Below, one piece after another: positions 8,049-58,716 of a DNA stretch of 64,000 nucleotides. Every line of letters starts with the position of its first letter. Position 1 is the stretch's first letter. The notes beneath the pieces were generated by a model. That model saw nothing but the letters and a program-made list of their open reading frames with translations. It made no database searches and was not told where the DNA came from. The stretch covers positions 496,001 to 560,000 of the forward strand of contig WSYJ01000186.1 in assembly GCA_020186115.1 (NCBI GenBank), given 5' to 3'. The stretch is from Histomonas meleagridis. Its lineage: Eukaryota > Parabasalia > Tritrichomonadida > Dientamoebidae. Both the position numbers and the translations under genes were made by a program.

Positions 8049-9493
8049 ATGGAATATCAAATAAAAAGCGAAATTCATGAAAACGAATGGGAAACATTAA
8101 TATATATTAAGAATTTAATTTTTAGTTTAAACAAAGAAAATATTATTCAGTCTTCAAAATCAATCATAAGTAAATATTTATCCATTCTCTTTTAATTTAA
8201 TTATTGTTAGGATTACATATGCAACTACTATCATACGAATGAAAGATGTTGATTTATATTTGGATTTTCTTAAAGAAATCAAAAAACTAGAAACAAGCAT
8301 TCAGAAAGATATTGATATTTTTGATTTATATGGAAATTTTCTTGTTTGTAAAAATACACAAGAATCATATTATCTTCTTGCGAAAATGATTGAAGATAAT
8401 ATACTCGATAAAAAAAGCATTAAAAACATAAAACACCCATTTACTTCTAAAGGATATTTTATACAGTACATGCCAAATGAAACAATTAAAGAATTAAGGG
8501 ATCATAAATTTGCTGAATATAAAGAATTATGAAGAACTTAAAAAGAATGATTGGGAACTTCATAAGAAATTAATTAATGAAGGGCATAGTCCAAACGAAA
8601 TTGCTGTAATAATTCGGAATGATGAAATAGAAAAACTTCAAGAAATATCATCAAACAAATTTTGATTTTAATCAATTTATTATGCCATCACTTTATGAAA
8701 GATGTGATTTTGTTAATCAAGAAAATGTTACATTAATTGATTATGCAGCATTTTTTTCTTCGATTAAATGTTTTAGATATTTACTTATGAATGGCTCTAA
8801 CATAAATAATACAGGTAAATATGCAATTGCAGGTGGGAATGAAGAAATCATTCATTTATGTGAACAGAATCATTCAACATTTGAAGGTGCATATGAAGCT
8901 TCAATAGAATTTCATCGAAATGATATCTTTAAATATCTTTATGAAAACAAATTAGAAGAAATACGACCAAAGTCAATGCTTCAAACGCCTGGAGATAGAA
9001 CTAATCATTTGGTAAGTTTCTGTATTCAAAAAGATAATTATGAAATTCTAAAATATTTTGAAGAAAAAGGAATTAATGTTGATGTTGATAATATAAATGA
9101 ATCAGCAAGAAATGGAAATTTATATCTCGTGAAGTATTTCCTTCAAAATAATCAAATTCCAAAAAATATTTTGCCATTTGCTTCAGAATCAGGAAATATT
9201 GAACTTGTGAAATATGTTTTAGAACAAAAAGGAATTGATGTTAATGAAAAACATATTCATTTTAATAATTTTGGATTTATTTTAATAATTTTATATATGT
9301 TTTAATAAATTGGAATATGTTTTAATAATTTTATATATGTTTTAATAATTTAGAATATGTTTTAATAATTTGGAATATGTTTTAATAATATTTGACTGCA
9401 ATTCAAATTGCACAACAAAAAGGTTTTAAAGAAATTGTAAATTTACTATTTGAAAAAAGTACAAATAAAAATTCTGATTGTCTTCTTCTATAA
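8049..9493 (+). pseudogene. Decayed DUF3447/ankyrin-repeat gene, copy 1
   Basis: This is a broken member of the trichomonad DUF3447/ankyrin family. It aligns with the intact paralogue at 31033 but carries frameshifts near 8190, 8525 and 8660. The start fits ATG 8049, then the pieces 8239-8532 and 8682-9305 remain open. The second piece holds the DUF3447 core (YAAFFSSIKCFRYLLMNG) and ankyrin-like units ending in DVNEKHI. From about 9245 the frame enters an AT-rich spacer built on a 20-base unit, then resumes at 9395 with a final ankyrin unit (TAIQIAQQKGF) and a stop at 9491-9493. Bases 8955-9331 are nearly identical to 32101-32477. The proteins of this family have no established function. Confidence 0.85.
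9250..9394 (+). repeat. 20-base AT-rich minisatellite spacer in ankyrin copy 1
   Basis: Imperfect tandem copies of a unit like AATATGTTTTAATAATTTGG lie between two ankyrin units and contain stop codons. The spacing from one ankyrin unit (9165) to the next (9395) is 230 bases, the same as the first spacer interval in the paralogue at 32311-32541. Confidence 0.8.
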
Positions 9494-9807: not shown

Positions 9808-11089
9808 TAGGGGGGGGGGGGACGGAAATGTTTTATCCTAAATATATCGGAATAAAAGATTTTAATTATTTTTTTTAAATTTACTTATTGTAGTAGTTAC
9901 CTTTGTTCTTTATCACCCATTGACATCTTTCAATCCATTCTTCAAAAACTTTTGCTAAAGTATCCTTTGAAATTTCCAAAATTTCAGTTATTTTATCGTG
10001 CAATTGTCGAAAATCATCAAATTTTTCTCCTTCTAGTTGATTTTTTAAAAAATCAAATAAAAAGAAATCTGAAGTAGCAAGATCTGTGAATATGATGGCT
10101 GTGGAGCTCTTTTAAAACCATTATCAACCAATAATTTAGTTGAAGCATTCGAGGTATGGGGAGATGCATTATCGAAATGTAATACATATGGGTCTTCATT
10201 GGGTTTTTTTTTTTTTGTGGGTATACAATTTGCTTCAAGGGTTTAATTATATTATTAATAAAATACTTTGAGTTAAATTTTTCACCATCTTTCATTAGAT
10301 CAACTATAATAAATTGATCAATATTCCAAAAAATGATTACCATATATTTTATCGTGTCAATTTTTGTATCGATAATTTCAGGTAAATTATCTCTCGATAG
10401 TGACCACATATGCTTGTGATCAAATGATAAGAAAAACCATGATTCATCCCCAGTTATGATTCTATGGAAACCTTTTCCCTTGCTAATTTTTAAAATATCA
10501 ACAAGCTAAGTTGCTTTTCGCACTCTATCATATTTCATTTCACATGACAGTTCATATGGATCAATCCTTAAATTATGATAATGGAAGCCGAATTTATTAA
10601 GGTGATCATTTATGGTGGATCGTGGTATAGACAAGGTATCGCTTAATGTATATGTTGAATGAAATGGTTCCATTTCGAGTGCAGCTAAAATTATTGAATC
10701 AATGAAATCAAGTACAGGTCTTCCTGGACTTTGAATATTCGTTATTCCAGATCTCCCTAATTTAAATTGATGCACCCAATATTTTATGGTATTAATATTG
10801 AGTGCATCTTGGTGATAAACATCATCTAATTCTTGTTTAATTTGGCTGAGTTTAAAGCCTTTTCTTTTCAGGAAAAATATGACTGCTCTTTGTTCGACTT
10901 CCATAAAAATGATAAATGTTTAAAAAGATTGACAATATGAAAGTTTATTTTTGACATTTTCTTGATATATAAAATATTTCTGATCTCAAAAATTATATCA
11001 TTATTTTTACAATCTTTTATATTTTTATATATATAATTTTTATTAAAAAAAATAAAACTATCATATTTATAAAACATTTATCTACCCTA
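9808..11089 (-). mobile_element. Mariner-family transposon remnant
   Basis: A 1282-base element flanked by TA on both sides (9806-9807 and 11090-11091). Its ends are short, imperfect inverted repeats: both begin TAGGG and share AAATGTTTTAT a few bases in. The left end has an expanded run of G. The size, the TA target duplication and the enclosed DD34D-type transposase remnant all fit mariner. The transposase is broken, so the element cannot act on its own. Confidence 0.8.
9880..10904 (-). pseudogene. Broken mariner transposase
   Basis: Mariner transposases cut and paste DNA at TA sites. The N-terminal part (10904 to 10506) holds the paired helix-turn-helix region: MEVEQRAVIFFLKRKGFKLS, then a GRPVLD linker and a second helix-turn-helix. 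A stop ends it at 10506. After it the frame resumes with ITGDESWFF (first catalytic Asp) and runs to 10053. A frameshift then separates HFDNASPHTS (second Asp) and SDLATSDFFLFDFLK (third Asp), which read on to about 9890. The catalytic triad is therefore still visible but is split over frames. No intact protein can be made. Confidence 0.85.
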
Positions 11090-17302: not shown

Positions 17303-17614
17303 TTTGCCAAGCACAGAAAAATCAGTAAGACAAAGAAAACAATTCAAAATTTGAGGTCTCAATACCACTTTTTGAATGAAAATTAAATTGTAATCGATCA
17401 AAAGCAATTTTCGATAGCATCGGAACGTTTGCCTTTCATCACACAAACGCTTCAAAAAGTGAAATTCCGTGAAACACAGCTTTTAACCGCCGAAAACGAT
17501 GAACGAATTTTTTCATCTTTTGCTCAATGACTAAACAATTTCATCATCTTCTCAATATATTAAATCCAAATCTCTTAAATTTAAACCGCGGCAACAAAAA
17601 ATAACTTTTGACCG
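17303..17614. promoter_or_regulatory. Upstream region of the phosphatase gene
   Basis: Contains two copies of the recurring CACTTTTT/AAAAAGTG element: ACCACTTTTTGAA at 17365-17377 and TTCAAAAAGTGAA at 17451-17463. The remainder is AT-rich and leads into the tandem repeat. Confidence 0.4.
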
Positions 17615-17958
17615 CAACGCAAATTCCTCATCAAAATGTAATTCCATTCACCAAAACAACGAAAACAAAAAATAAAATTTTTCCACAACGCAAATTCCTC
17701 ATCAAAATGTAATTCCATTCACCAAAACAACAAAAACAAAAAATAAAATTTTTCCACAACGCAAATTCCTCATCAAAATGTAATTCCATTCACCAAAACA
17801 ACAAAAACAAAAAATAAAATTTTTCCACAACGCAAATTCCTCATCAAAATGTAATTCCATTCACCAAAACAACAAAAACAAAAAATAAAATTTTTCCACA
17901 ACGCAAATTCCACATCAAAATGTAATTCCGTTCGCCAAAACAACGAAAACATTTAAAG
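17615..17958. repeat. 71-base tandem repeat, about 4.8 copies
   Basis: Units begin CAACGCAAATTCCTCATC at 17615, 17686, 17757, 17828 and 17899, an exact 71-base period. The three middle units are essentially identical; the outer ones carry a few substitutions (for example CCACATC and CCGTTCGCC in the last). The array sits between the 5' side of the phosphatase gene and the 3' end of the LisH/HEAT gene. It is non-coding in all frames inspected. Confidence 0.95.
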
Positions 17959-20730: not shown

Positions 20731-21891
20731 TTACTTTATTTCAAATTCTGAAGTTTCACTTAACCAATTCATTAGGAACTTTTGTGCTTTTTCTCTATAA
20801 CTATCTGTAGATTCAGCACCTGTATTAATACATAATGTCATAAAGTCCGACGAATATTTTTTCATGCCCTTAAACACGTCACCGATGACTGCTTGCTTGT
20901 TTACTACCCATGAATACCTATTAAATAATCCAACTCTAATTCTACGACATAATTTGGGGTGGGCCAAACAAGTGAATATCATCGACCGCTGATATTGTAA
21001 GTCATCTGACAGCCGAAATTGGTGATGTATTGTTTGGTTGACATAATCCCCAAACACTTCAATGCTTTTTGCCATTAATTGAAGTGAAGATGGAAATATA
21101 CTATGAACATTTGTATCATGTGGTTCAATAGATGCGAGCCGACGAAAGATACTTGCTGTGAAAAATCCTGCTGCGTTAAACTGTAGACGATCAGAATCAT
21201 TACGATTAGGATCTTTCCGTCGATCTATATAGTTTGATTCTGAATTTCGCCAACTTCTAAATTTTGTATATAATTTTGGTTCACCATTAAGACCAAAAAA
21301 ATCCGCTTTATTTAGTGGGCGTGAAAAAAATGTGTCGTCATTAAGATAAAGAAATTGATTAGAAAGACCAGGAATGTTAGAAAGTGAAAATTCAATAGCA
21401 TTGGAATTAAAAGATGGAAGTGCTGTTGGTGGGAAAATAGTGGAATGATCAACGTATACAATTTTGGGATTGCTGGAGTTAACATAAGGAATGGTTTGGT
21501 TAGCAGTAACAATGAATATTTTTCGAACCCATGGTGTGAATTTTTCAATGCTTCGGAGAGAATAACGCATTTCTCCATAGTCAACATAACGACCTGTATT
21601 GGCTTTCTTACTGATTGAAAGCATTGGATATTTTTTCTCTGCTAATTCTTTTTTAGCTAGCCATGCTGAATCGCCTCCATTAACCCAAGTATAAACAGCA
21701 TCAATGGCTAAATTTTCATTTTGAAAACCTATGGTATCAGGAACTTTAATGTATGATCGAAACCAAATTAGTGCAAAACCTAAGATAAAACAAAGTGTCT
21801 GAACCCATGGAGATTCGAAGTTTGCCTTATTCATAATCCTTACTGCTTTGCTTTGTTGATGAATTTCATCTGATTGCATGCAATGGTTCAT
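20731..21891 (-). CDS. Stealth-family glycosyl-phosphotransferase
   Basis: Member of the Stealth family, which includes the alpha/beta subunits of GlcNAc-1-phosphotransferase and bacterial capsule sugar-phosphate transferases. The conserved regions appear in order: CR1 (IDAVYTWVNGGDSAW), CR2 (GRYVDYGEMRYSLRSIEKF...RKIFIVTANQ), and the region with FLYLNDDTFFSRPL carrying the catalytic acids. A later block with DLQYQRSMIF and HPKLCRRIRVG follows. A hydrophobic segment (WVQTLCFILGFALIWF, about residues 30-45) makes it a type II membrane protein, probably Golgi. The frame opens at TTG 21936; the ATG at 21891 (386 aa) is preferred. It may build phosphoglycans such as the trichomonad surface glycoconjugate, which is inference. 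Confidence 0.8.
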   Translation of the reverse strand: MNHCMQSDEIHQQSKAVRIMNKANFESPWVQTLCFILGFALIWFRSYIKVPDTIGFQNENLAIDAVYTWVNGGDSAWLAKKELAEKKYPMLSISKKANTGRYVDYGEMRYSLRSIEKFTPWVRKIFIVTANQTIPYVNSSNPKIVYVDHSTIFPPTALPSFNSNAIEFSLSNIPGLSNQFLYLNDDTFFSRPLNKADFFGLNGEPKLYTKFRSWRNSESNYIDRRKDPNRNDSDRLQFNAAGFFTASIFRRLASIEPHDTNVHSIFPSSLQLMAKSIEVFGDYVNQTIHHQFRLSDDLQYQRSMIFTCLAHPKLCRRIRVGLFNRYSWVVNKQAVIGDVFKGMKKYSSDFMTLCINTGAESTDSYREKAQKFLMNWLSETSEFEIK

Positions 21892-22202
21892 TGGTTCATT
21901 AAAATTTATATACTTTACGTATATATTCAAAGGCAATATTTGAATGCTTTACCAATGATGGTGAACGTTAATCTAATTATTCGTTTTTAAGTAAAATTCT
22001 TTGGTTTATTACACTTTTTTTGGAAAAATTTTAATTAAAATAAACATTACAAATTTCTTGATTGGGATAAACTAGTCAAAAATTGAATTGAAATCATATC
22101 GGATCAGAAATATTTCAATATCTTCGGTTAAGCACTTTTACGGAGGTTTGAGGCGTTTTTCGACGGTTATTCTGAAGTTCAGAATTCTGAGTAAATTTTT
22201 TA
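21892..22202. promoter_or_regulatory. Divergent promoter, Stealth gene and Myb gene
   Basis: GTGAACGTTAATC at 21961-21973 serves the minus-strand gene by position. GCACTTTTACGG near 22131 lies about 70 bases before the Myb gene. The rest is AT-rich. Confidence 0.4.
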
Positions 22203-24498: not shown

Positions 24499-26223
24499 TT
24501 ATTGCATTGCCCCCATTTGCCATGAAACAAGTGCGTTTTCTAACGCTTCGAGTGCTTTGACTTGATCGCCTTCTGTTAGTTTTTGTATTGCTGTTTGTAA
24601 TAATCCTTGTACAGCAGAACGAGCTTCTTCACTTCGAACTTCGGGTACTTCAGTAATAATATCAACATGTAACTTCTCAAGAAGTGATAGGCCAGCGCTG
24701 AGATCAAAACCACTGTCAAAGTCATCAAGCTCTGGAATGGGTTCAATCTCCGGTATTGGCGCATGATGTTCGTTAGAAGCAAATTTGTCTGATGGTCCTG
24801 TGAAGGGACAATTGGGTGTAAACTTAGGAGGACCTTTTCTGATGGAAGGAGCGTTCGGAGTAAATTTGGGTGGACCGGTTGCAGATGGTGCATTAGGTGC
24901 GAACTTAGGAGGGCCATTGTCGACTGGGGGCGCGTTGGGTGTGAACTTGGGTGGACCGCCAACGGGAGGAGCGTTGGGTGTGAACTTGGGCGGACCGCTG
25001 ACCGGTGGTGCATTTGGTGTGAATTTAGGTGGACCTCCAACGGGTGGTGCATTAGGTGTAAATTTAGGCGGACCATTGTCGACTGGAGGTGCATTAGGTG
25101 TGAACTTGGGTGGGCCTCCTGCGTTAGCATTAGATTTTCCAGGAGGAGTGAACACTGGTGGACCTGTTAGACCTGAGCTATTGCTACTTCCGCCGCTTCC
25201 AGGAGGAGTGAACACAGGAGGACCTCCTGCGTTAGAATTCGATTTACCTGGCGGCGTGAACACTGGCGGACCGGTCAGACCCGAATTATTGCTACTTCCG
25301 CCGCTTCCTGGTGGTGTAAACACAGGAGGGCCTCCTGCGTTAGCATTAGATTTTCCAGGAGGAGTGAACACTGGTGGACCTGTTAGACCTGAGCTATTGC
25401 TACTTCCGCCGCTTCCTGGTGGTGTGAACACCGGTGGGCCTCCTGCGTTAGCATTAGATATTCCTGGAGGAGTGAACACTGGTGGACCTGTTAGACCTGA
25501 GCTATTGCTACTTCCGCCGCTTCCTGGTGGTGTAAACACAGGAGGGCCTCCTGCGTTAGCATTAGATTTTCCTGGCGGCGTGAACACTGGTGGACCTGTT
25601 AGACCTGAGCTATTGCTACTTCCGCCGCTTCCTGGTGGTGTGAACACTGGTGGTCCACTTGCGCTGGATTTTCCTGGCGGCGTGAACACTGGCGGCCCTG
25701 TCAGACCCGAGCTATTGCTGCTGCTGCTTCCCGGCGGCGTGAACACTGGCGGCCCGTTCAGCTGCGGCGCGGCGCCTCCCGCTGCGTGCCCTTCCCCTGT
25801 CACGCCGGCCTTCGCGAGCATCTTTTTGGCTTTGACGGAGACGACTTTGCATATCTTCTCTCTTTCCATTGACTCTTCGTCGTCGAGTGTTGAGTACACT
25901 TGCGCGCACATGAAGAACTGGCTCGGCATGTTCGCTCTGACTCTTCCGCTTTGGAATTGATTTGATAATTTTTCAAATAGATTGTCAGCAAATTGCTTTG
26001 TCACTTCCTGCGCGTTGTCTGGCATTTCCGGCGTTGTTGCTTCGATTTGGCGAATGTAATTCACTGCCGCAGGAGAAAGAGATCCGTCGTTCATATCTTG
26101 GATGAACATTAGGAAGCAGTTTCGCATAACATTCGATACAATCGGCTGCTCGTTTTTTAGAGCGTTGGATATTTGGAGATATGACGCGTATTGCTTGAAT
26201 TCTGGTGGTACTTGATTTGCCAT
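24499..26223 (-). CDS. VTA1: VTA1/LIP5 homologue with Pro-rich repeat array
   Basis: VTA1 activates the Vps4 ATPase that disassembles ESCRT-III. The first 140 residues form the tandem MIT-like domain (VPPEFKQYASYLQISNAL near the start is the family signature). The last 100 residues form the Vps4-binding VSL domain, with two helices including DQVKALEALENAL. Between them lie two minisatellite blocks. Residues 157-369 hold twelve copies of GPPVFTPPG separated by Ser/Gly/Asn linkers, and residues 370-471 hold eight copies of GPPKFTPNAP-like units. The linker in other VTA1 proteins is variable and short, so this repeat expansion is unusual. The start is ATG 26223, with a Myb core at 26251. Confidence 0.85.
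   Translation of the reverse strand: MANQVPPEFKQYASYLQISNALKNEQPIVSNVMRNCFLMFIQDMNDGSLSPAAVNYIRQIEATTPEMPDNAQEVTKQFADNLFEKLSNQFQSGRVRANMPSQFFMCAQVYSTLDDEESMEREKICKVVSVKAKKMLAKAGVTGEGHAAGGAAPQLNGPPVFTPPGSSSSNSSGLTGPPVFTPPGKSSASGPPVFTPPGSGGSSNSSGLTGPPVFTPPGKSNANAGGPPVFTPPGSGGSSNSSGLTGPPVFTPPGISNANAGGPPVFTPPGSGGSSNSSGLTGPPVFTPPGKSNANAGGPPVFTPPGSGGSSNNSGLTGPPVFTPPGKSNSNAGGPPVFTPPGSGGSSNSSGLTGPPVFTPPGKSNANAGGPPKFTPNAPPVDNGPPKFTPNAPPVGGPPKFTPNAPPVSGPPKFTPNAPPVGGPPKFTPNAPPVDNGPPKFAPNAPSATGPPKFTPNAPSIRKGPPKFTPNCPFTGPSDKFASNEHHAPIPEIEPIPELDDFDSGFDLSAGLSLLEKLHVDIITEVPEVRSEEARSAVQGLLQTAIQKLTEGDQVKALEALENALVSWQMGAMQ
24811..25755 (-). repeat. Coding minisatellite in VTA1
   Basis: Two adjoining arrays. 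Bases 25117-25755 repeat a 108-base (36-residue) unit about six times, each with two GPPVFTPPG motifs. Bases 24811-25116 repeat a 36-45-base unit encoding GPPKFTPNAP with short linkers, eight times. Neighbouring units differ mainly at silent positions. This explains the long open frame on the opposite strand. Confidence 0.95.
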
Positions 26224-30690: not shown

Positions 30691-31032
30691 CATAAGCTAT
30701 AACTTATAATTACCATCAAATATGATGAATTTTATTGACTTATAAGTAAGCAAAGGAATTACTAAATTTCATGAAACCTATGATCCATTTTTGAGAAATT
30801 GAAAATTGTTTTTATTTTACATTTGTGTATTTTCATTTCCATATTTTGATTTTGATTTGAACTCGAAACAGGTAACATATATATTATTGAAAATTAAAAG
30901 ATACTTAGAATCACATTTGTACATTCTAATGTGTTTATTTTTTTCTTAAAAAATAATATTGTTCGTTATAAGACTTTCACAACCAATTGATGAAATTTGC
31001 TAAGTTCAAAAAAAGACGTTAAGTTACTTGAC
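30691..31032. other. AT-rich gap before ankyrin copy 3
   Basis: AT-rich sequence. An ATG at 30990 opens a short frame that is out of phase with the ankyrin gene and stops after ten codons. No clear Myb core was found. Confidence 0.4.
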
Positions 31033-32942
31033 ATGTCAATCAAAAAGTTACAAACGACTTTATTTTTTGACCTTTTTAAACTCAATTTAGTAATCATACA
31101 AAGATCATTTTTGCCAAAGCACATGTTTAATGATGATATTCATATCACAAACATTGGAGATAAAAATTTGAACAATCCATCAACCTTCTTGAAATTACTA
31201 ACTGAGCTTGGGAAGGCTGTGTTCAATTTAACTGAAGAAAACTTTCAGACGTCTATTAAAAAAGTATTGGAATTATTTGATTCAAATTTTCCCATTACAT
31301 TTAATATTGTTATAAGTAACATAATTTATAATGCATTCTCATCACGAAAGCATGTATTTGATATTTACATAAATTTTTTAAAAGCACTTGAAATGAAAGA
31401 AGAAGAAATTAATCAAAATATCGTTCAACTAATACCAATTTTTACCAAATGTATATCTACAACGAGCACACAAGAATCATATTATTTAATCGAGAAAATG
31501 ATTGAACAAAATTTGATTGATAAAAATATCACTAAAAATATTAAATCAAAATATTTTGCTCATTATAAAACAGAAAAAGAAAATCATTTTTCATTTGGGT
31601 CTAATAGATATGATCCAATAGAAAAATACTTTTTTGATAATTATAAAGAACTTTCAAAGAATGATTGGGAACTTCATAAGAAATATATTAAAGAAGGACA
31701 TAATCCAAATGAAATTGCTAAAATAATTCGAAATGATGAAATCGAAAAACTTCAAGAAATATCATCACAAGAAAATTTCGATTTTAATCAAAAAATTGAA
31801 CCATCACTTTATGAAAGATGTTCATTTGTTAATCATGAAAATGTTAGATTAATTGATTATGCAGCATTTTTTGGATCTGTTAAATGTTTTAAATATTTAT
31901 TTATGAATGGAGCAAATATAAATAATACAGGTAAATATGCAGTTGCAGGTGGAAACGAAGAAATTATTCATTTATGTGAACAGAATCATTCATCATTTGA
32001 AGGTGCATATGAAACAGCAATTGAATTTCATCTAAATGATATCTTTAAATATATTTATGAAAATGAATCAGAAAAAATACAATCAACGCCAAAAATGTCT
32101 GAAGAAATACGACCAAAGTCAATGCTTCAAACGCCTGGAGATAGAACTAATCATTTGGTAAGTTTTTGTATTCAAAAAGATAATTATGAAATTCTAAAAT
32201 ATTTTGAAGAAAAAGGAATTAATGTTGATGTTGATAATATAAATGAATCAGCAAGAAATGGAAATTTATATCTCGTGAAGTATTTCCTTCAAAATAATCA
32301 AATTCCAAAAAATATTTTGCCATTTGCTTCAGAATCAGGAAATATTGAACTTGTGAAATATGTTTTAGAACAAAAAGGAATTGATGTTAATGAAAAACAT
32401 ATTCATTTTAATAATTTTGGATTTATTTTAATAATTTTATATATGTTTTAATAAATTGGAATATGTTTTAATAATTTGGAATATGTTTTAATAATTTAAA
32501 ATATGTTTTAATAATTTGTAATATGTTTTAATAATTTGAAACAGCACTTCATATATCAGTTAGAAATAATAATATAGAAATATTAAAATTACTTTTAGAT
32601 GAAGGAATTGATGTTAATGCAAAAAATATTCATTTCAATAATTTAGAATATGTTTTAATAATTTAAAATATGTTTTAATAATTTGAAACAGCACTTCATA
32701 TAGCAGTTAGAAATAATTATATAGAAATAGTAAAATTACTTTTAGATAAAGGAATTGATGTTAATGCAAAAAATATTCATTTGAATAATTTAGAATATCC
32801 TTTAATAATTTGGACTTTATTTTAATAATATTTTACTGCAATTCAAATTGCACAACAAAAAGGTTTCATAGAAATAGTAAGTTTCCTTCATGAAAAAAGA
32901 ATAAATGAAAATTTTAATTCAGAATCTCCCAATAAATATTAA
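31033..32942 (+). CDS. DUF3447/ankyrin-repeat protein, copy 3 (best preserved)
   Basis: The main frame runs from ATG 31033 to a stop at 32451 (472 aa). The N-terminal 190 residues are a helical region shared by all copies in this window. DUF3447 follows, with SLYERCSFVNHENVRLIDYAAFFGSVKCFKYLFMNG and GKYAVAGGNEEIIHLCEQN. Ankyrin-like units then end at DVNEKHI. Beyond 32410 lie AT-rich spacers with stops, but three further ankyrin units are intact at about 32541, 32688 and 32835 (TALHISVRNN, TALHIAVRNN, TAIQIAQQKG). A tail ends at 32942. Either the product is truncated in a spacer or the spacers are removed. TTG at 30997 extends the frame, but the ATG is preferred. Function is unknown. Confidence 0.75.
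32405..32834 (+). repeat. AT-rich minisatellite spacers between ankyrin units
   Basis: Three spacers built on the 20-base unit AATATGTTTTAATAATTTGG separate ankyrin units. The unit starts are spaced 230, 147 and 147 bases apart (32311, 32541, 32688, 32835). All spacers contain stop codons and sit at the same place in the repeat, after NAK-N/H-I-H and before the T of TALHIA. Confidence 0.85.
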
Positions 32943-36513: not shown

Positions 36514-36953
36514 ATCATATCACATCTACAAATGTCTGGTTGGAACGCATATCTTGCTGATGTTAAAGATATCTGCTCAGGCTGTGCCATTGTTTCACTT
36601 CAAGGAGCACTTTGTGGCAAAGAAGGTAAGTGGGAAGCAAAACAAGCTGAAATGCAAAACTATGCAGCATGCCTTAACAACATTTCATCAGCACAATCAA
36701 AAGGAATTACATACAATGGTAAGAAATATATCATTGTTCGTGCTGTTGATGATTCTATTCTTGCACAACTTGGAAAAGAAGCAGTTGTTCTCCAAAAGGC
36801 CAAAACAGTTTTAGTAGCAGCCAAATGTGTTGATGGTCAAGTTCCAGCAGCAGCAGCGGCGGGTGTTTCTAAATGTGTTGCTAAGTTAATGGCAGCCAAT
36901 TGCTAAATTCTCTAAAGAATTTTCCCAACTTTCTTTTCTTTTATCAAAATTTT
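36514..36953 (+). repeat. 440-base profilin duplication, left copy
   Basis: Identical to 37575-38014 except for one base, with no gaps. It begins 18 bases before the ATG and ends 47 bases after the stop. Flanks on both sides differ. Confidence 0.97.
36532..36906 (+). CDS. Profilin, copy 1
   Basis: Profilin binds actin monomers and poly-proline ligands and promotes filament growth. The 124-aa protein has the profilin N-terminal helix (MSGWNAYLADV) and a central strand pair (GITYNGKKYIIVRAVDDSIL). It ends with the family's Ala-rich C-terminal helix (AAAAAGVSKCVAKLM). A trichomonad initiator-like TCACA lies at 36520-36524, eight bases before the ATG. The stop reads TAAA, the polyadenylation signal. 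The whole unit from 36514 to 36953 is repeated 1061 bases downstream with one silent change (AAA here, AAG in copy 2 at the Lys codon ending at 36621). Confidence 0.85.
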   Translation: MSGWNAYLADVKDICSGCAIVSLQGALCGKEGKWEAKQAEMQNYAACLNNISSAQSKGITYNGKKYIIVRAVDDSILAQLGKEAVVLQKAKTVLVAAKCVDGQVPAAAAAGVSKCVAKLMAANC

Positions 36954-37574
36954 TATGTAGTTTCACTTTCGCCAAGAAATGTATACCTTCAACCTCTTAA
37001 AAGATGGATATCCACCATTTTCGTAAGTAAAACGTTTAGGTTTTATCCTGTAAAATCGGTACTTTTTGAACGTCAGTTTCTGGAAGAGAAATAATTTCCA
37101 AGTTGCCATGACTTGCTTAATATGATGACTTTACAAGAATTGTAAACAAATAGAATGTGATAATGTTGTTATATATTCATTGTTTTCAAAGAAAAAACAT
37201 TAAATCATATACAATCTTTAAACAATTTTTCAAATCGAAAATTATTTTTTATAGTTATAAAAAAAATATTGTATTGTTTTGTAATGCCATATAATAATAG
37301 TATAGCTTTTTTACTTGAATATTGTAGTTTCGTTCTGATTGAAAAGAAAATCAATAAAAAAAATCAAAAAGATTAAGAGAATTTAAACATCAATGCATAT
37401 CACAAAACTTAGCATCTATTACCAAGTTTTTAATATTCAAAGTTTAATAAAATGATTTTTGATAAGATTATCTCCTTCACCTTTACATTTACATTTTATT
37501 TTTATAAAACCGCTACTTTTGAATGAATTCAAATATTTGAAATAAATCTACAGAATTGAGTGGCTGACAAACCA
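36954..37574. other. AT-rich gap between profilin copies
   Basis: AT-rich. Near its right end AAAACCGCTACTTTTGAATG (37507-37526) combines an AACCG-like core and an ACTTTTGA element, which may serve as the promoter of copy 2. No gene is seen. Confidence 0.4.
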
Positions 37575-38014
37575 ATCATATCACATCTACAAATGTCTGG
37601 TTGGAACGCATATCTTGCTGATGTTAAAGATATCTGCTCAGGCTGTGCCATTGTTTCACTTCAAGGAGCACTTTGTGGCAAGGAAGGTAAGTGGGAAGCA
37701 AAACAAGCTGAAATGCAAAACTATGCAGCATGCCTTAACAACATTTCATCAGCACAATCAAAAGGAATTACATACAATGGTAAGAAATATATCATTGTTC
37801 GTGCTGTTGATGATTCTATTCTTGCACAACTTGGAAAAGAAGCAGTTGTTCTCCAAAAGGCCAAAACAGTTTTAGTAGCAGCCAAATGTGTTGATGGTCA
37901 AGTTCCAGCAGCAGCAGCGGCGGGTGTTTCTAAATGTGTTGCTAAGTTAATGGCAGCCAATTGCTAAATTCTCTAAAGAATTTTCCCAACTTTCTTTTCT
38001 TTTATCAAAATTTT
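37575..38014 (+). repeat. 440-base profilin duplication, right copy
   Basis: Matches 36514-36953 base for base except at 37682 (G instead of A). No poly-A tract or target-site duplication is evident at its borders. Confidence 0.97.
37593..37967 (+). CDS. Profilin, copy 2
   Basis: The protein is identical in all 124 residues to copy 1; only one third-codon base differs. The frame extends upstream to a GTG at 37560, but the sequence homologous to copy 1 shows that the ATG at 37593 is the start. The initiator-like TCACA and the TAAA stop context are copied with it, but the farther upstream promoter elements are not. The near identity points to a very recent duplication or to ongoing gene conversion. 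Expression depends on its own upstream DNA. Confidence 0.85.
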   Translation: MSGWNAYLADVKDICSGCAIVSLQGALCGKEGKWEAKQAEMQNYAACLNNISSAQSKGITYNGKKYIIVRAVDDSILAQLGKEAVVLQKAKTVLVAAKCVDGQVPAAAAAGVSKCVAKLMAANC

Positions 38015-49288: not shown

Positions 49289-51084
49289 ATGAATGATAAT
49301 TCCATGCAAAAAATAGGCTCTTATCAAAAATTGATTTGGAATTTACCTCAAGAAGATTTTGGCGAATTAATCCATTCAACATTAAAAATGTTCGAAGAAA
49401 CAAATTTTCATTTTTCGCTTAGTATGATTATATGTCAGTTAATATATATTTCTCTATGTTCCCATATGGATAAAATTGATATATATTTCCAATTTATGTT
49501 AAAAATCGAAGAACTAAGTCAGAACAAATATAAAATTATGGATTTATTTTATAAATATGTTAAAAAAAAGGTTTCTCAAGAATCACTTTTCATTTTTAAC
49601 GAAATGATTAAACAAAATATCATTGAACCAAAACATGTAAAAGAGAAGGTTAGTTTACTTTTTGCTCATTACATGAATGATATGGAACTTAAACATATTG
49701 GATGGGTATCATTCCGCAAAGAATTTTTCGATAATTATGAAGAACTTTCAAAGAATGATTGGGAACTTCATAAGAAATTAATTGAAGAAGGAGTTAATCC
49801 AAATGAAATTGCAAAAATCATTCGAAATGATGAAATCGAAAAACTTCAAGAAATATCATCACAAACGAATTTTGATTTTAATCAAGAAATTGAACCATCA
49901 CTTTATGAAAGATGTTCATTTGTTAATCAAAGATATGTTACATTAATTGATTATGCAGCATTTTTTTCTGCTATTAAATGTTTTAAGTATTTACTTATGA
50001 ATGGTGCAAATGTAAGGAACACAAGTAAATATGCAGTTGCAAGTGGAAACATTGAAATCATTCATTTATGTGAACAAAATTATTCACTATTTGATAGCGG
50101 ACATGAAACTGCAATACAATTTCATCAAAATGATATTTTCCATTATATTTACGAAAATAAAACTAGAGAAATCAAAAATTTTGAAAAATTGGGAATGTTA
50201 TGTGTTAAATATCAGAATTATGAAATTTTATTATTCCTAATTAAAGAAGGGTTGAAAATAACTGATGTTATTAATACATCAGCAAAAATCGGAAACATAT
50301 TTCTTTTAAAGGATTTTCTTGAAACGAGTCAAATTCCAAAAAATATTTTGTTATTTGCATCAAAATCAGGAAATGATGAAATTGTTAAATATGTTTTACA
50401 CCAACAAGGATTTGATATTAATGTTAAAAATATTTAAATATTTTGTTTAGGATTTTAATTAATAATTTGATATTCCATAATGTTATTTGGAAAATATTTT
50501 TTATATTTCGTACACCACTTATATTAGCATCATTAAATTGTTATGTTAATATCGTTAAGTTACTTCTTGAACAAGAAGGAATTGATATTAATGCTAAAGA
50601 TTTTTATTTGTTTTCTTTATTATTTATTTTATTAATTATATATTTCAACGGAATATTTGGAAATTATTTGAATTATTTTTAACAACACTAATGAGAGCAT
50701 CTCAATTTGGTAGTATCGAAATAGTTAAATTACTTCTCGAAAAAGATGGAATTAATATTAATGCTAAAAGTATATGTTTTCTTGTTTTGATGATTAATTC
50801 AATGTATTACTGTTTAAAAATAAAATTTAATTTTTATACAAAATATTTTCTACAGCAATTATGATCGCAGCTCAAAATAGAAATACAGAAATTGTTAAAC
50901 TGCTTCTTAAACAAAAAGAAATTGATATCAATGTTATAGATGCGTTTTAATTTTATTTAAATTTTGTTTTAATAATTTTGGGATTAAAAATCATTTTTGG
51001 TGTTTATTCATTTAATAATGGACATTACTTACAATTGCTAAATCAAAGAATTTAAGTGAGATTTGTGAATTACTTACTGAATAA
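49289..51084 (+). CDS. DUF3447/ankyrin-repeat protein with interrupted 3' end, copy 4
   Basis: The first frame (49289-50437, 382 aa) is intact from ATG. It has the N-terminal helical region, DUF3447 (SLYERCSFVNQRYVTLIDYA, AFFSAIKCFKYLLMNG) and ankyrin-like units ending INVKNI. Four more ankyrin units follow: 50512 (TPLILASLNC), 50682 (TTLMRASQFG), 50852 (TAIMIAAQNR) and 51022 (TLLTIAKSKN). Each is intact inside, and the last ends at a stop (51082-51084). Between them lie 75-80-base T-rich spacers with stops and frame changes. Successive unit starts, including 50342 in the main frame, are exactly 170 bases apart. The feature may be a truncated gene or one whose spacers are spliced. Function is unknown. 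Confidence 0.65.
50434..51021 (+). repeat. 170-base period of ankyrin unit plus spacer
   Basis: Ankyrin units at 50342, 50512, 50682, 50852 and 51022 are separated by T-rich spacers at about 50434-50511, 50604-50681, 50773-50851 and 50945-51021. The spacers differ in sequence, yet the period is exactly 170 each time. The third spacer begins GTATATG and ends TTCTACAG, a GT-AG pair. The fourth contains TTTTAATAATTTTGG, as in the spacers of copy 3. Confidence 0.8.
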
Positions 51085-58000: not shown

Positions 58001-58190
58001 AAATATTTATTGTAAAAAATCTAGGTTTTAAAATTCGTCCTTTTTACATCTCAATATTGTCCATCAGATTTTCCTTGAGATTTGGGGTTCTTTATTTAGT
58101 ATAACTCAAGCATGTGTAGCTTTAAAAAAAGCGGTATTTGAATTGTCACCGCCTGTGTTTATATTTTTTAAATTTGCTGATGAAATATAT
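58001..58190. other. Short AT-rich gap
   Basis: Nothing recognised before the CPSF30 promoter. Confidence 0.4.
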
Positions 58191-58227
58191 GTTAAACGGT
58201 CGCAAAAATTTACTAGTAAAAAGTGAC
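58191..58227 (+). promoter_or_regulatory. Myb core plus AGTAAAAAGTGA before CPSF30
   Basis: GTTAAACGGT at 58191-58200 and TTTACTAGTAAAAAGTGAC at 58209-58227, ending 12 bases before the ATG. The same pair with the same second element lies before the RNA candidate at 30582. Confidence 0.55.
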
Positions 58228-58239
58228 AGAAATTTCTCT

Positions 58240-58716
58240 ATGTGGTTCTTCCAGCCATATCCACAGAGACAACTCCAATTTAACTTCGAACCAACAATCC
58301 GCGAAATAGACGAAAATGAAGAAAGGTGCCACCAACGTTATATTGACTCTTTGACACCTGAAGAACAAGCAAATTTCCAGAAAACAGTTTGTCTTCACTG
58401 GATACGTACTTTATGCAATAAAGGTGATCATTGCAAGTTCCTTCATGAAATTGACAGAGATAAAATGACAAAATGTTGGTTTTGGGAAAAATTTCATGAA
58501 TGCAGTAATTTTGAATGCATTTTCAAGCACGATGATATCGAAATGCACAATGAAAAGTGTAAGTTTTATGTACGTGGTTTTTGCAGACATGGAAATAAAT
58601 GTAGAAGGAAGCATGTTATGAAGGATTCTATATGTTTGAACTACCTTGCTGGCTTCTGTCCAGATGGTCCTAATTGTATCTTCTCTCATGCCAAGTGGGT
58701 TGAAGAAGATAATTAA
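58240..58716 (+). CDS. CPSF30/Yth1 polyadenylation factor
   Basis: The zinc-finger subunit of the cleavage and polyadenylation complex, which reads the poly-A signal. Four CCCH fingers follow one another: CLHWIRTLCNKGDHCKFLH, CWFWEKFHECSNFECIFKH, CKFYVRGFCRHGNKCRRKH and CLNYLAGFCPDGPNCIFSH. They match fingers 2-5 of CPSF30. Finger 1 is not present, and the C-terminal zinc knuckle of animal CPSF30 is absent. The frame extends upstream to 58138, but promoter elements at 58191-58227 place the start at ATG 58240 (158 aa). Trichomonads use UAAA in place of AAUAAA; this protein is a candidate reader. The stop itself reads TAAAA. Confidence 0.9.
   Translation: MWFFQPYPQRQLQFNFEPTIREIDENEERCHQRYIDSLTPEEQANFQKTVCLHWIRTLCNKGDHCKFLHEIDRDKMTKCWFWEKFHECSNFECIFKHDDIEMHNEKCKFYVRGFCRHGNKCRRKHVMKDSICLNYLAGFCPDGPNCIFSHAKWVEEDN

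Follow-up and report, generated by a model that had tools for sequence, protein, structure and literature searches.

Tiny 17-nt inserts between the loop codons of Histomonas ankyrin genes: candidates for an extreme kind of micro-intron

Introduction

How can an ankyrin protein be made from a gene in which every repeat unit is open to translation and every spacer between the units bears stop codons? This question is raised by a locus of Histomonas meleagridis at positions 49289-51084 of the window, a term that denotes here the whole 64-kb stretch of DNA analysed (positions 496,001-560,000 of contig C120, in a genome of 43.28 Mb and 121 contigs). An earlier note on this DNA had described five ankyrin units that start at 50342, 50512, 50682, 50852, and 51022, exactly 170 nt apart, with stop-bearing spacers between them and a stop at the end of the last unit, and had offered two explanations, namely a module of ankyrin exon plus intron copied in tandem or a truncated gene with a recently duplicated array. 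The units, their spacing, and the closing stop (51082-51084) are confirmed, as is the stop-bearing nature of the spacers, which are four in number and measure 83 nt each. The interpretation, in turn, is partly supported: taking each spacer as a single intron missed that the loops are cut codon by codon, an arrangement found at many places in the genome.

Anatomy of the Ankyrin Array in the Window

The features of the locus are listed below with their window positions and strand.

49289..50428, + strand: N-terminal coding part with DUF3447 and ankyrin sequence (ORF listing, Pfam)
50342..50428, + strand: ankyrin unit 1, 29 codons, the last unit of the N-terminal coding part
50429..50511, + strand: spacer 1, loop N-R-D-G-R plus four 17-nt inserts
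50432..50448, 50452..50468, 50472..50488, 50492..50508, + strand: inserts 1.1-1.4, 17 nt each
50512..50598, + strand: ankyrin unit 2
50599..50681, + strand: spacer 2, loop D-I-Y-G-L plus four 17-nt inserts
50602..50618, 50622..50638, 50642..50658, 50662..50678, + strand: inserts 2.1-2.4, 17 nt each
50682..50768, + strand: ankyrin unit 3
50769..50851, + strand: spacer 3, loop S-D-T-N-S plus four 17-nt inserts
50772..50788, 50792..50808, 50812..50828, 50832..50848, + strand: inserts 3.1-3.4, 17 nt each
50852..50938, + strand: ankyrin unit 4
50939..51021, + strand: spacer 4, loop D-K-W-G-W plus four 17-nt inserts (fixed-register reading)
50942..50958, 50962..50978, 50982..50998, 51002..51018, + strand: inserts 4.1-4.4, 17 nt each
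51022..51084, + strand: ankyrin unit 5, C-terminal cap, with the natural stop at 51082-51084

Translated mechanically, the gene ends at a stop at 50435-50437, inside the first insert. Each spacer begins and ends with a codon and alternates five codons with four 17-nt inserts, and its five codons form the ankyrin loop D/N-x-x-G-x; in spacer 1, the loop codons, 3 nt each, lie at 50429, 50449, 50469, 50489, and 50509. When all sixteen inserts are left out, the loops read NRDGR, DIYGL, SDTNS, and DKWGW and a single frame runs to the stop at 51084. The insert-free array has the 33-34 residue ankyrin unit and the D-x-x-G-x-T-P/A-L loop, one of the four loops (SDTNS of spacer 3, the least typical of the array) being without glycine. 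Its score against the Pfam profile Ank_2 is 120.6 bits (cut-off 27.3), compared with 107.7 when whole spacers are left out and 98.3 when the first 15 nt of each spacer are read, and the same three readings give 110.2, 54.0, and 72.3 with Ank_5. Identity among the units of the array is 61-72% over the first 90 nt and 49-65% over the next 80 nt. Spacer 4 is missing from the parser listing described below, where unit 5 falls under the profile cut-off.

The earlier note had also drawn attention to the ends of spacer 3, GTATATG...TTCTACAG, as splice-like boundaries. These ends arise by chance: at the start, AGT is a loop codon that is followed by the insert ATATGTTTTCTTGTTTT, while at the end TCT is a loop codon that is followed by the ACAG of the T-A codons of the next unit. 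Insert 3.1 (50772..50788) is similar to the commonest insert of the genome sample, ATATGTTTTAATAATTT.

Spacer Lengths and Inserts across the Genome

An ankyrin profile made from the units was run on the six frames of 46 merged stretches (308,932 bp), a 309-kb sample picked for ankyrin loci, apart from the 64-kb window, and 332 ankyrin units were found. Besides the normal loop of 15 nt, the distances between units show recurring values of 32, 49, 66, and 83 nt and of 43, 63, 83, and 103 nt, up to 463 nt. The 245 spacer lengths divide into 123 of the form 15+17i, 92 further ones of the form 20m-17, 5 of the form 18+17i, and 25 others. The unit-spacer design is thus far beyond chance, recurring across the sampled stretches with spacer lengths on a fixed lattice. 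Ten gaps that contain a canonical gene or a hidden unit (117, 128, 219, 414, 417, 429, 305, 199, 193, and 259 nt) were left out of the parser set, and a few poor-scoring spacers that are probably not of this kind were retained (e.g., 123 nt on C24 and 75 nt on C7).

A 17-nt period was sought inside the spacers by autocorrelation, and 26 strongly diverged spacers of 83 nt gave peaks at 20 and 40 nt instead; the spacers were therefore read as codon plus 17 nt. Aligned in 20-nt steps, they resolve into 17 nt of nearly pure A/T and one triplet per step, and read together the triplets give the ankyrin loop. The common 83-nt spacer yields D-N-D-G-E before T-A-L, and the 66-nt class consists of two codons together and then three inserts, with loops such as D-N-D-G-E and D-N-Y-G-R.

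Two other readings of the spacers were tried and rejected. Read through as long loops, they hold a stop in the preceding frame in 65 of 83 cases at 83 nt, 50 of 51 at 63 nt, 9 of 9 at 103 nt, and 18 of 37 at 66 nt, and reading through the 83- and 103-nt spacers also shifts the frame. For one GT...AG intron per spacer, no choice of ends fits across the spacer types, as judged by inspection.

A parser that permits only inserts of 16-18 nt and forbids stops gave 17 nt for 1,010 of 1,033 inserts, 18 nt for 15, and 16 nt for 8 (245 spacers, 309 kb), with a score of 19.3 for real spacers and -7.3 for letter-shuffled ones. Since stops and other lengths are forbidden, the parser is no independent proof of insert length or of the absence of stops; independent support comes from the fixed-register slots, the stop depletion, and the lattice lengths. 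Parser, lattice lengths, and fixed-register slots together place the inserts in the narrow 15-17 nt range of ultra-short introns.

The commonest insert, type I, is ATATGTTTTAATAATTT, and the triplets that accompany it vary freely (GGA, TAT, GAA, AGA, and others). Among 381 type I 20-mers, selected by positions 3-7, the insert is 95-99% constant at positions 8-19 and the three slot bases are widely variable. The GC content is 29% in the triplet slots, 26% in the units, and 7% in the inserts. Genome-wide, the exact word ATATGTTTTAATAATTT occurs 2,213 times and its reverse 4 times, while ATTTCAAAATAATATTTGGA, the insert plus a glycine codon, occurs 1,801 times and its reverse 0 times, the placement of both words in ankyrin loops being checked in the sampled stretches only. 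Moreover, all 551 tandem matches of an insert-pattern profile (built from the 83-, 63-, and 103-nt spacers only) in the 309 kb chosen for ankyrin loci lie at most 700 nt from an ankyrin unit. The spacer has no counterpart in the phage records searched.

None of 157 non-redundant 17-mers carries the GT...AG terminal dinucleotides of spliceosomal introns. They start with AT in 64 cases and with GT in 38, and end with TT in 112, AG in 1, and AC in 3. An A is found at position 14 in 71% and at position 11 in 57% of them, either of which might be a branch point.

Individual loci of the sample show further variations. The longest loop (L014, C40:303000-311000) has a spacer of 463 nt with 24 codons and 23 inserts of 17 nt. 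On the reverse strand of C40:3011000-3020500 (L026), four spacers of 84 nt have an 18-nt insert common to four near-identical modules, a one-base length change that was probably spread by duplication. A mostly continuous ankyrin stretch with uninterrupted loops lies on the reverse strand of C66:479420-480220 (L064); its frame changes once between two units, not via a 17-nt insert as far as seen.

Selection on Units and Loop Codons

The claim that the units are kept coding and the spacers are not holds across the sample. In 300 spaced units, there are 0.003 stops per codon in their own frame versus 0.104 and 0.179 in the other frames, and the spacers have 0.074-0.129 stops per codon in all frames. 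Among 197 fully covered middle units, one stop was found, compared with about 84 stop-bearing units expected if they were neutral; a neutral simulation at equal divergence put stops into about 77 out of 146 units and 6 out of 51. Detection by DNA similarity alone yielded 225 units, two of them frameshifted, and a stop in 1 of 223. A search for stops and frameshifts in former coding units, as in an array of pseudogenes, thus came out negative.

Values of dN/dS between units range from 0.54 to 1.31, mostly 0.65-1.1, with one comparison undefined. Values this high would by themselves suggest weak constraint, and dN/dS is not decisive. Unit variation is greatest at positions 4, 5, 8, 9, and 11, which may reflect diversifying rather than absent selection. 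An archive of silent cassettes that would serve the first unit was also considered, but units in first, middle, and last position belong to distinct types, and the idea was dropped on these grounds.

The loop codons are likewise protected. Read in fixed register, with no parser, the codon slots contain stops in 0 of 415 cases in spacers of 83 nt, 0 of 185 at 66 nt, 1 of 204 at 63 nt, and 0 of 54 at 103 nt. For the 174 spacers of the 3+20n series, which leaves out one 123-nt spacer of a canonical gene, this amounts to 1 stop in 966 slots against 97.7 expected from the base composition of the slots themselves. Glycine occupies the fourth slot in 53 of the 83 spacers with 83 nt (26 of 36 without near copies) and in 30 of the 37 with 66 nt (11 of 12 without near copies), and it is present in 14 of 16 uninterrupted 15-nt loops of the sampled stretches.

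Orthologues with Uninterrupted Loops

Two Histomonas genes could be compared with continuous orthologues. The gene on C55 (G000:C55, L004) has an open stretch of 451 codons and then loops with 17, 51, 17, and 52 extra nt. Six hits were about 720-733 residues long, and four of these, continuous orthologues of some 730 residues that include Tritrichomonas foetus TRFO_28638 (P0025), were used for the comparison. All four have HKFDM where Histomonas has NKFD-17 nt-M, and DEEGW, DDEGW, or DDEKW where it has D-17-NE-17-G-17-W; the remaining two broken loops are also uninterrupted in all four. When P0025 is searched against C55 by tblastn, the match passes from frame 2 (residues 7-437) to frame 1 (residues 435-726) at the first insert. 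Placed one at a time, three Histomonas pieces (upstream of loop 1, from loop 1 to loop 2, and from loop 3 to loop 4) follow in order in 4/4 orthologues, and the last piece is placed in 3/4, with narrow margins; the lone unit that separates loops 2 and 3 finds its better match at another unit in 4/4.

In the gene on C74 (L008), the loops exceed the 15-nt length by 35, 51, and 34 nt, and the six orthologues (P0059-P0064) are continuous. The first and last pieces, which precede loop 1 and follow loop 3, are placed as expected in all six, and the piece that links loops 2 and 3 in five; the lone unit from loop 1 to loop 2 is placed in none by itself. At the second position, these orthologues have a loop of more than five residues. 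Because they differ from Histomonas at the loops, only the lengths and the order of the pieces speak for the reading of this gene. In both genes, insert removal restores a conserved in-frame protein, as expected of introns, to judge by the uninterrupted orthologues, and the codon slots of the sampled spacers are almost free of stops. The sequences themselves establish the anatomy, the near-fixed insert length, the uninterrupted orthologues, and the selection that keeps stops out of both the units and the codons of the loops.

Relatives of the window gene were compared at the protein level only. Twelve were used (P0001-P0010, P0012, and P0013, at 43-55% identity; P0028, P0029, P0032, and P0011 were left out), and most of them end shortly past the last ankyrin unit. 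The tails of P0002 and P0013 resemble a spacer that was read through, and P0009 has one uninterrupted loop. Judged from protein alone, P0024, P0031, P0056, and P0057 seem interrupted too, at other loop codons; if so, the inserts would be older than the splits from such relatives. An annotated Histomonas member of the family, P0058, appears to stop within a first insert (protein only).

Other Family Copies and Neighbours in the Window

Two more copies of the family lie in the window.

30997..32942, + strand: second family gene, with a DUF3447 part, units with spacers of 143, 63, and 63 nt, a cap unit, and a stop
32398..32540, + strand: spacer of 143 nt, 8 loop codons, 7 inserts of 17 nt
32625..32687, + strand: spacer of 63 nt, 4 loop codons, 3 inserts
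32772..32834, + strand: spacer of 63 nt, 4 loop codons, 3 inserts
9252..9394, + strand: spacer of 143 nt in the third copy, loop HWYGYRGL (8 codons), 7 inserts of 17 nt

The second gene has 7, 3, and 3 inserts of 17 nt in the loops HWYGGKVE, NRKE, and NRGF. In the third copy (8500-9493), the N-terminal frame seems broken near 8.65 kb, and the loop, cap unit, and stop are similar to those of the copy at 30.9-32.9 kb.

Other repeat genes of the window, of the BspA-type LRR, Sel1, kelch, and WD40 kinds, are long ORFs with Pfam matches. The window also contains a tandem array of period 71 (17593-17951, 5.1 copies, 96% matches), long tandem repeats of 39-108 nt at 24811-25719 inside an ORF with a weak Vta1 match (24499-26223), two adjacent profilin genes on the same strand (36532-36906 and 37560-37967), a Stealth-type protein (CR1 and CR2; 20731-21936) in a parabasalid, and a G run in AT-rich surroundings at about 9810-9821.

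How the Inserts May Be Removed

The inserts must be removed or skipped for a protein to be made. From the selection on units and loop codons and from the orthologues, we infer with good confidence that they behave as micro-introns, which the spliceosome, or a variant of this machinery, would excise from the transcript ahead of translation. The inter-repeat loop D/N-x-x-G-x is broken between codons (phase 0) by AT-rich inserts of 17 nt, typically three or four per loop, so that single codons would become 3-nt exons, and the joined message would encode an ordinary ankyrin protein. Tandem gain or loss of the 20-nt unit (codon plus insert) would make the loop longer or shorter by one codon, with the frame unbroken. 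Since this DNA unit is codon plus insert, 20 nt, loops could lengthen (up to 24 codons) and vary, and slippage of the unit would presumably drive the change. We lean slightly towards the broader proposal of a new class of intervening sequence, of 17 nt, without GT...AG, in phase 0, which would be recognised by its length and its RTTT...ATTT ends and cut codon by codon, leaving one-codon exons with up to 23 inserts in a row, and whose 20-nt unit would act as a frame-neutral engine that lengthens and varies loops across a large ankyrin family.

The organism has spliceosomal protein: a Prp8 domain (E 5.8e-84) is found in an ORF of 2,333 aa. Moreover, a small ORF with Torus and CCCH domains is located at 58138-58716 of the window, which we take to resemble the spliceosomal protein Cwc2. 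A point against splicing is that a run of up to 23 introns of 17 nt, with exons of 3 nt between them, would be hard for any known spliceosome. With a spliceosome protein in the genome and introns as short as 15-17 nt on record in Stentor and Mikrocytos, the inserts appear to work like micro-introns, but they are not filed as spliceosomal introns because GT...AG is found in 0/157.

The inserts could alternatively stay in the mRNA, the ribosome skipping each of them by translational bypassing. Bypass elements are short non-triplet stretches, and the inserts lie exactly between codons, which agrees with this explanation. However, bypassing follows a rule of matching take-off and landing codons, and here the codon ahead of an insert is identical to the insert's final triplet in 16 of 1,033 inserts, that triplet being TTT in 923 of 1,033; up to 23 hops would be needed, with one codon between each, and we consider bypassing unlikely. 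A different proposal is that the arrays past the first spacer are dead, i.e., that a truncated gene carries a recently duplicated unit-plus-spacer module. The end of the first ORF in the first spacer, the apparent end of P0058 in a first insert (protein only), dN/dS near 1 in several comparisons, and the many modules that are near copies would all agree with decay. This explanation, the second one of the earlier note, is unsupported and already refuted in large part, because stops are strongly depleted in both the units and the loop codons (a single stop among 197 middle units, with about 84 stop-bearing units expected, and 1 in 966 loop slots). In addition, the first and last units have remained distinct, the orthologues of the C55 and C74 genes are continuous, and, at the protein level, relatives at 43-55% identity either terminate at the same position or appear to be translated through a spacer of this type, which leaves a dead array very unlikely.

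The first explanation of the earlier note, an exon-plus-intron module in tandem, was a serious possibility, and its intron idea survives in altered form: the spacer is not one intron but four 17-nt inserts among five loop codons. In its original form, with each spacer an ordinary intron with degenerate splice sites that was copied in tandem with its exon, it would account for coding units and non-coding spacers, and removal of the whole spacer also keeps the frame. Against it, the five loop codons within the spacer are conserved and almost stop-free, removing whole spacers costs the ankyrin loop and Pfam score, and spacer lengths step by 17 or 20 nt. The Trichomonas-type pattern GTATGT...CTAAC...ACAG has 8 matches versus 11 in a reversed control, and the Trichomonas 3' motif quoted in the earlier note, ACTAACACACAG, has 3 matches in the Histomonas genome versus 2 in the control, in line with its reported absence from the spacers. 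One ordinary intron per spacer is consequently regarded as highly improbable. Removal of the inserts from the DNA of a working genome copy, as in ciliates, can hardly be credited: precise, short, AT-rich elements between codons would look alike in DNA, but no second kind of nucleus is known in parabasalids. In addition, the assembly, made from DNA of parasite culture (PMC8529796), contains the inserts.

Significance and Comparison with Known Systems

The inserts look like a new, extreme kind of tiny intron in the loops of many Histomonas ankyrin genes. The Histomonas genome paper reports 573 introns, with a maximum of one per gene (PMC8529796), and the word ankyrin is absent from its main text. 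A partial search of the literature (including PMC8529796, PMC12316389, PMC11978803, PMC9505925, PMC10245619, PMC6679479, and the proteome paper PMC10063853) gave no account of such inserts. If they are removed from RNA, they would be introns near the lower size limit, with single-codon exons, in a genome thought to be intron-poor. The finding of splice sites without GT...AG, and without exon or intron definition, would then have to be rethought, and a large ankyrin family of a poultry parasite would turn out to be annotated, at least partly, as truncated genes. Very many near-identical inserts with single-codon exons between them provide a clear test system, and they suggest how a non-triplet DNA repeat can alter a protein loop by exactly one residue per step.

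Several known systems share some of these traits. Bypass elements, known from phage T4 gene 60 and Magnusiomyces mitochondria, are likewise non-triplet stretches within coding sequence that are absent from the protein (as predicted for Histomonas), whereas the matching take-off and landing codons are absent in the Histomonas inserts. Trichomonas vaginalis, also a parabasalid, has short, T-rich Type B introns, which differ from the inserts in length, being about 25 nt and down to 23 nt long (PMC12316389). The introns of Stentor coeruleus, described as 15-16 nt long and mostly with a GU start and an AG end (PMC9505925), are similarly uniform, extremely short, AU-rich, and many per genome; unlike them, the Histomonas inserts have GT...AG in 0/157, lie one codon apart in tandem, and are found only in ankyrin loops. 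The closest in size are the introns of Mikrocytos mackini, of 16-17 nt, with 224 in 179 genes (PMC10245619), which share with the inserts a near-fixed length and a conserved sequence, whereas the Histomonas inserts number more than 1,000 in the sampled stretches, all of them in ankyrin loops and with single codons between them.
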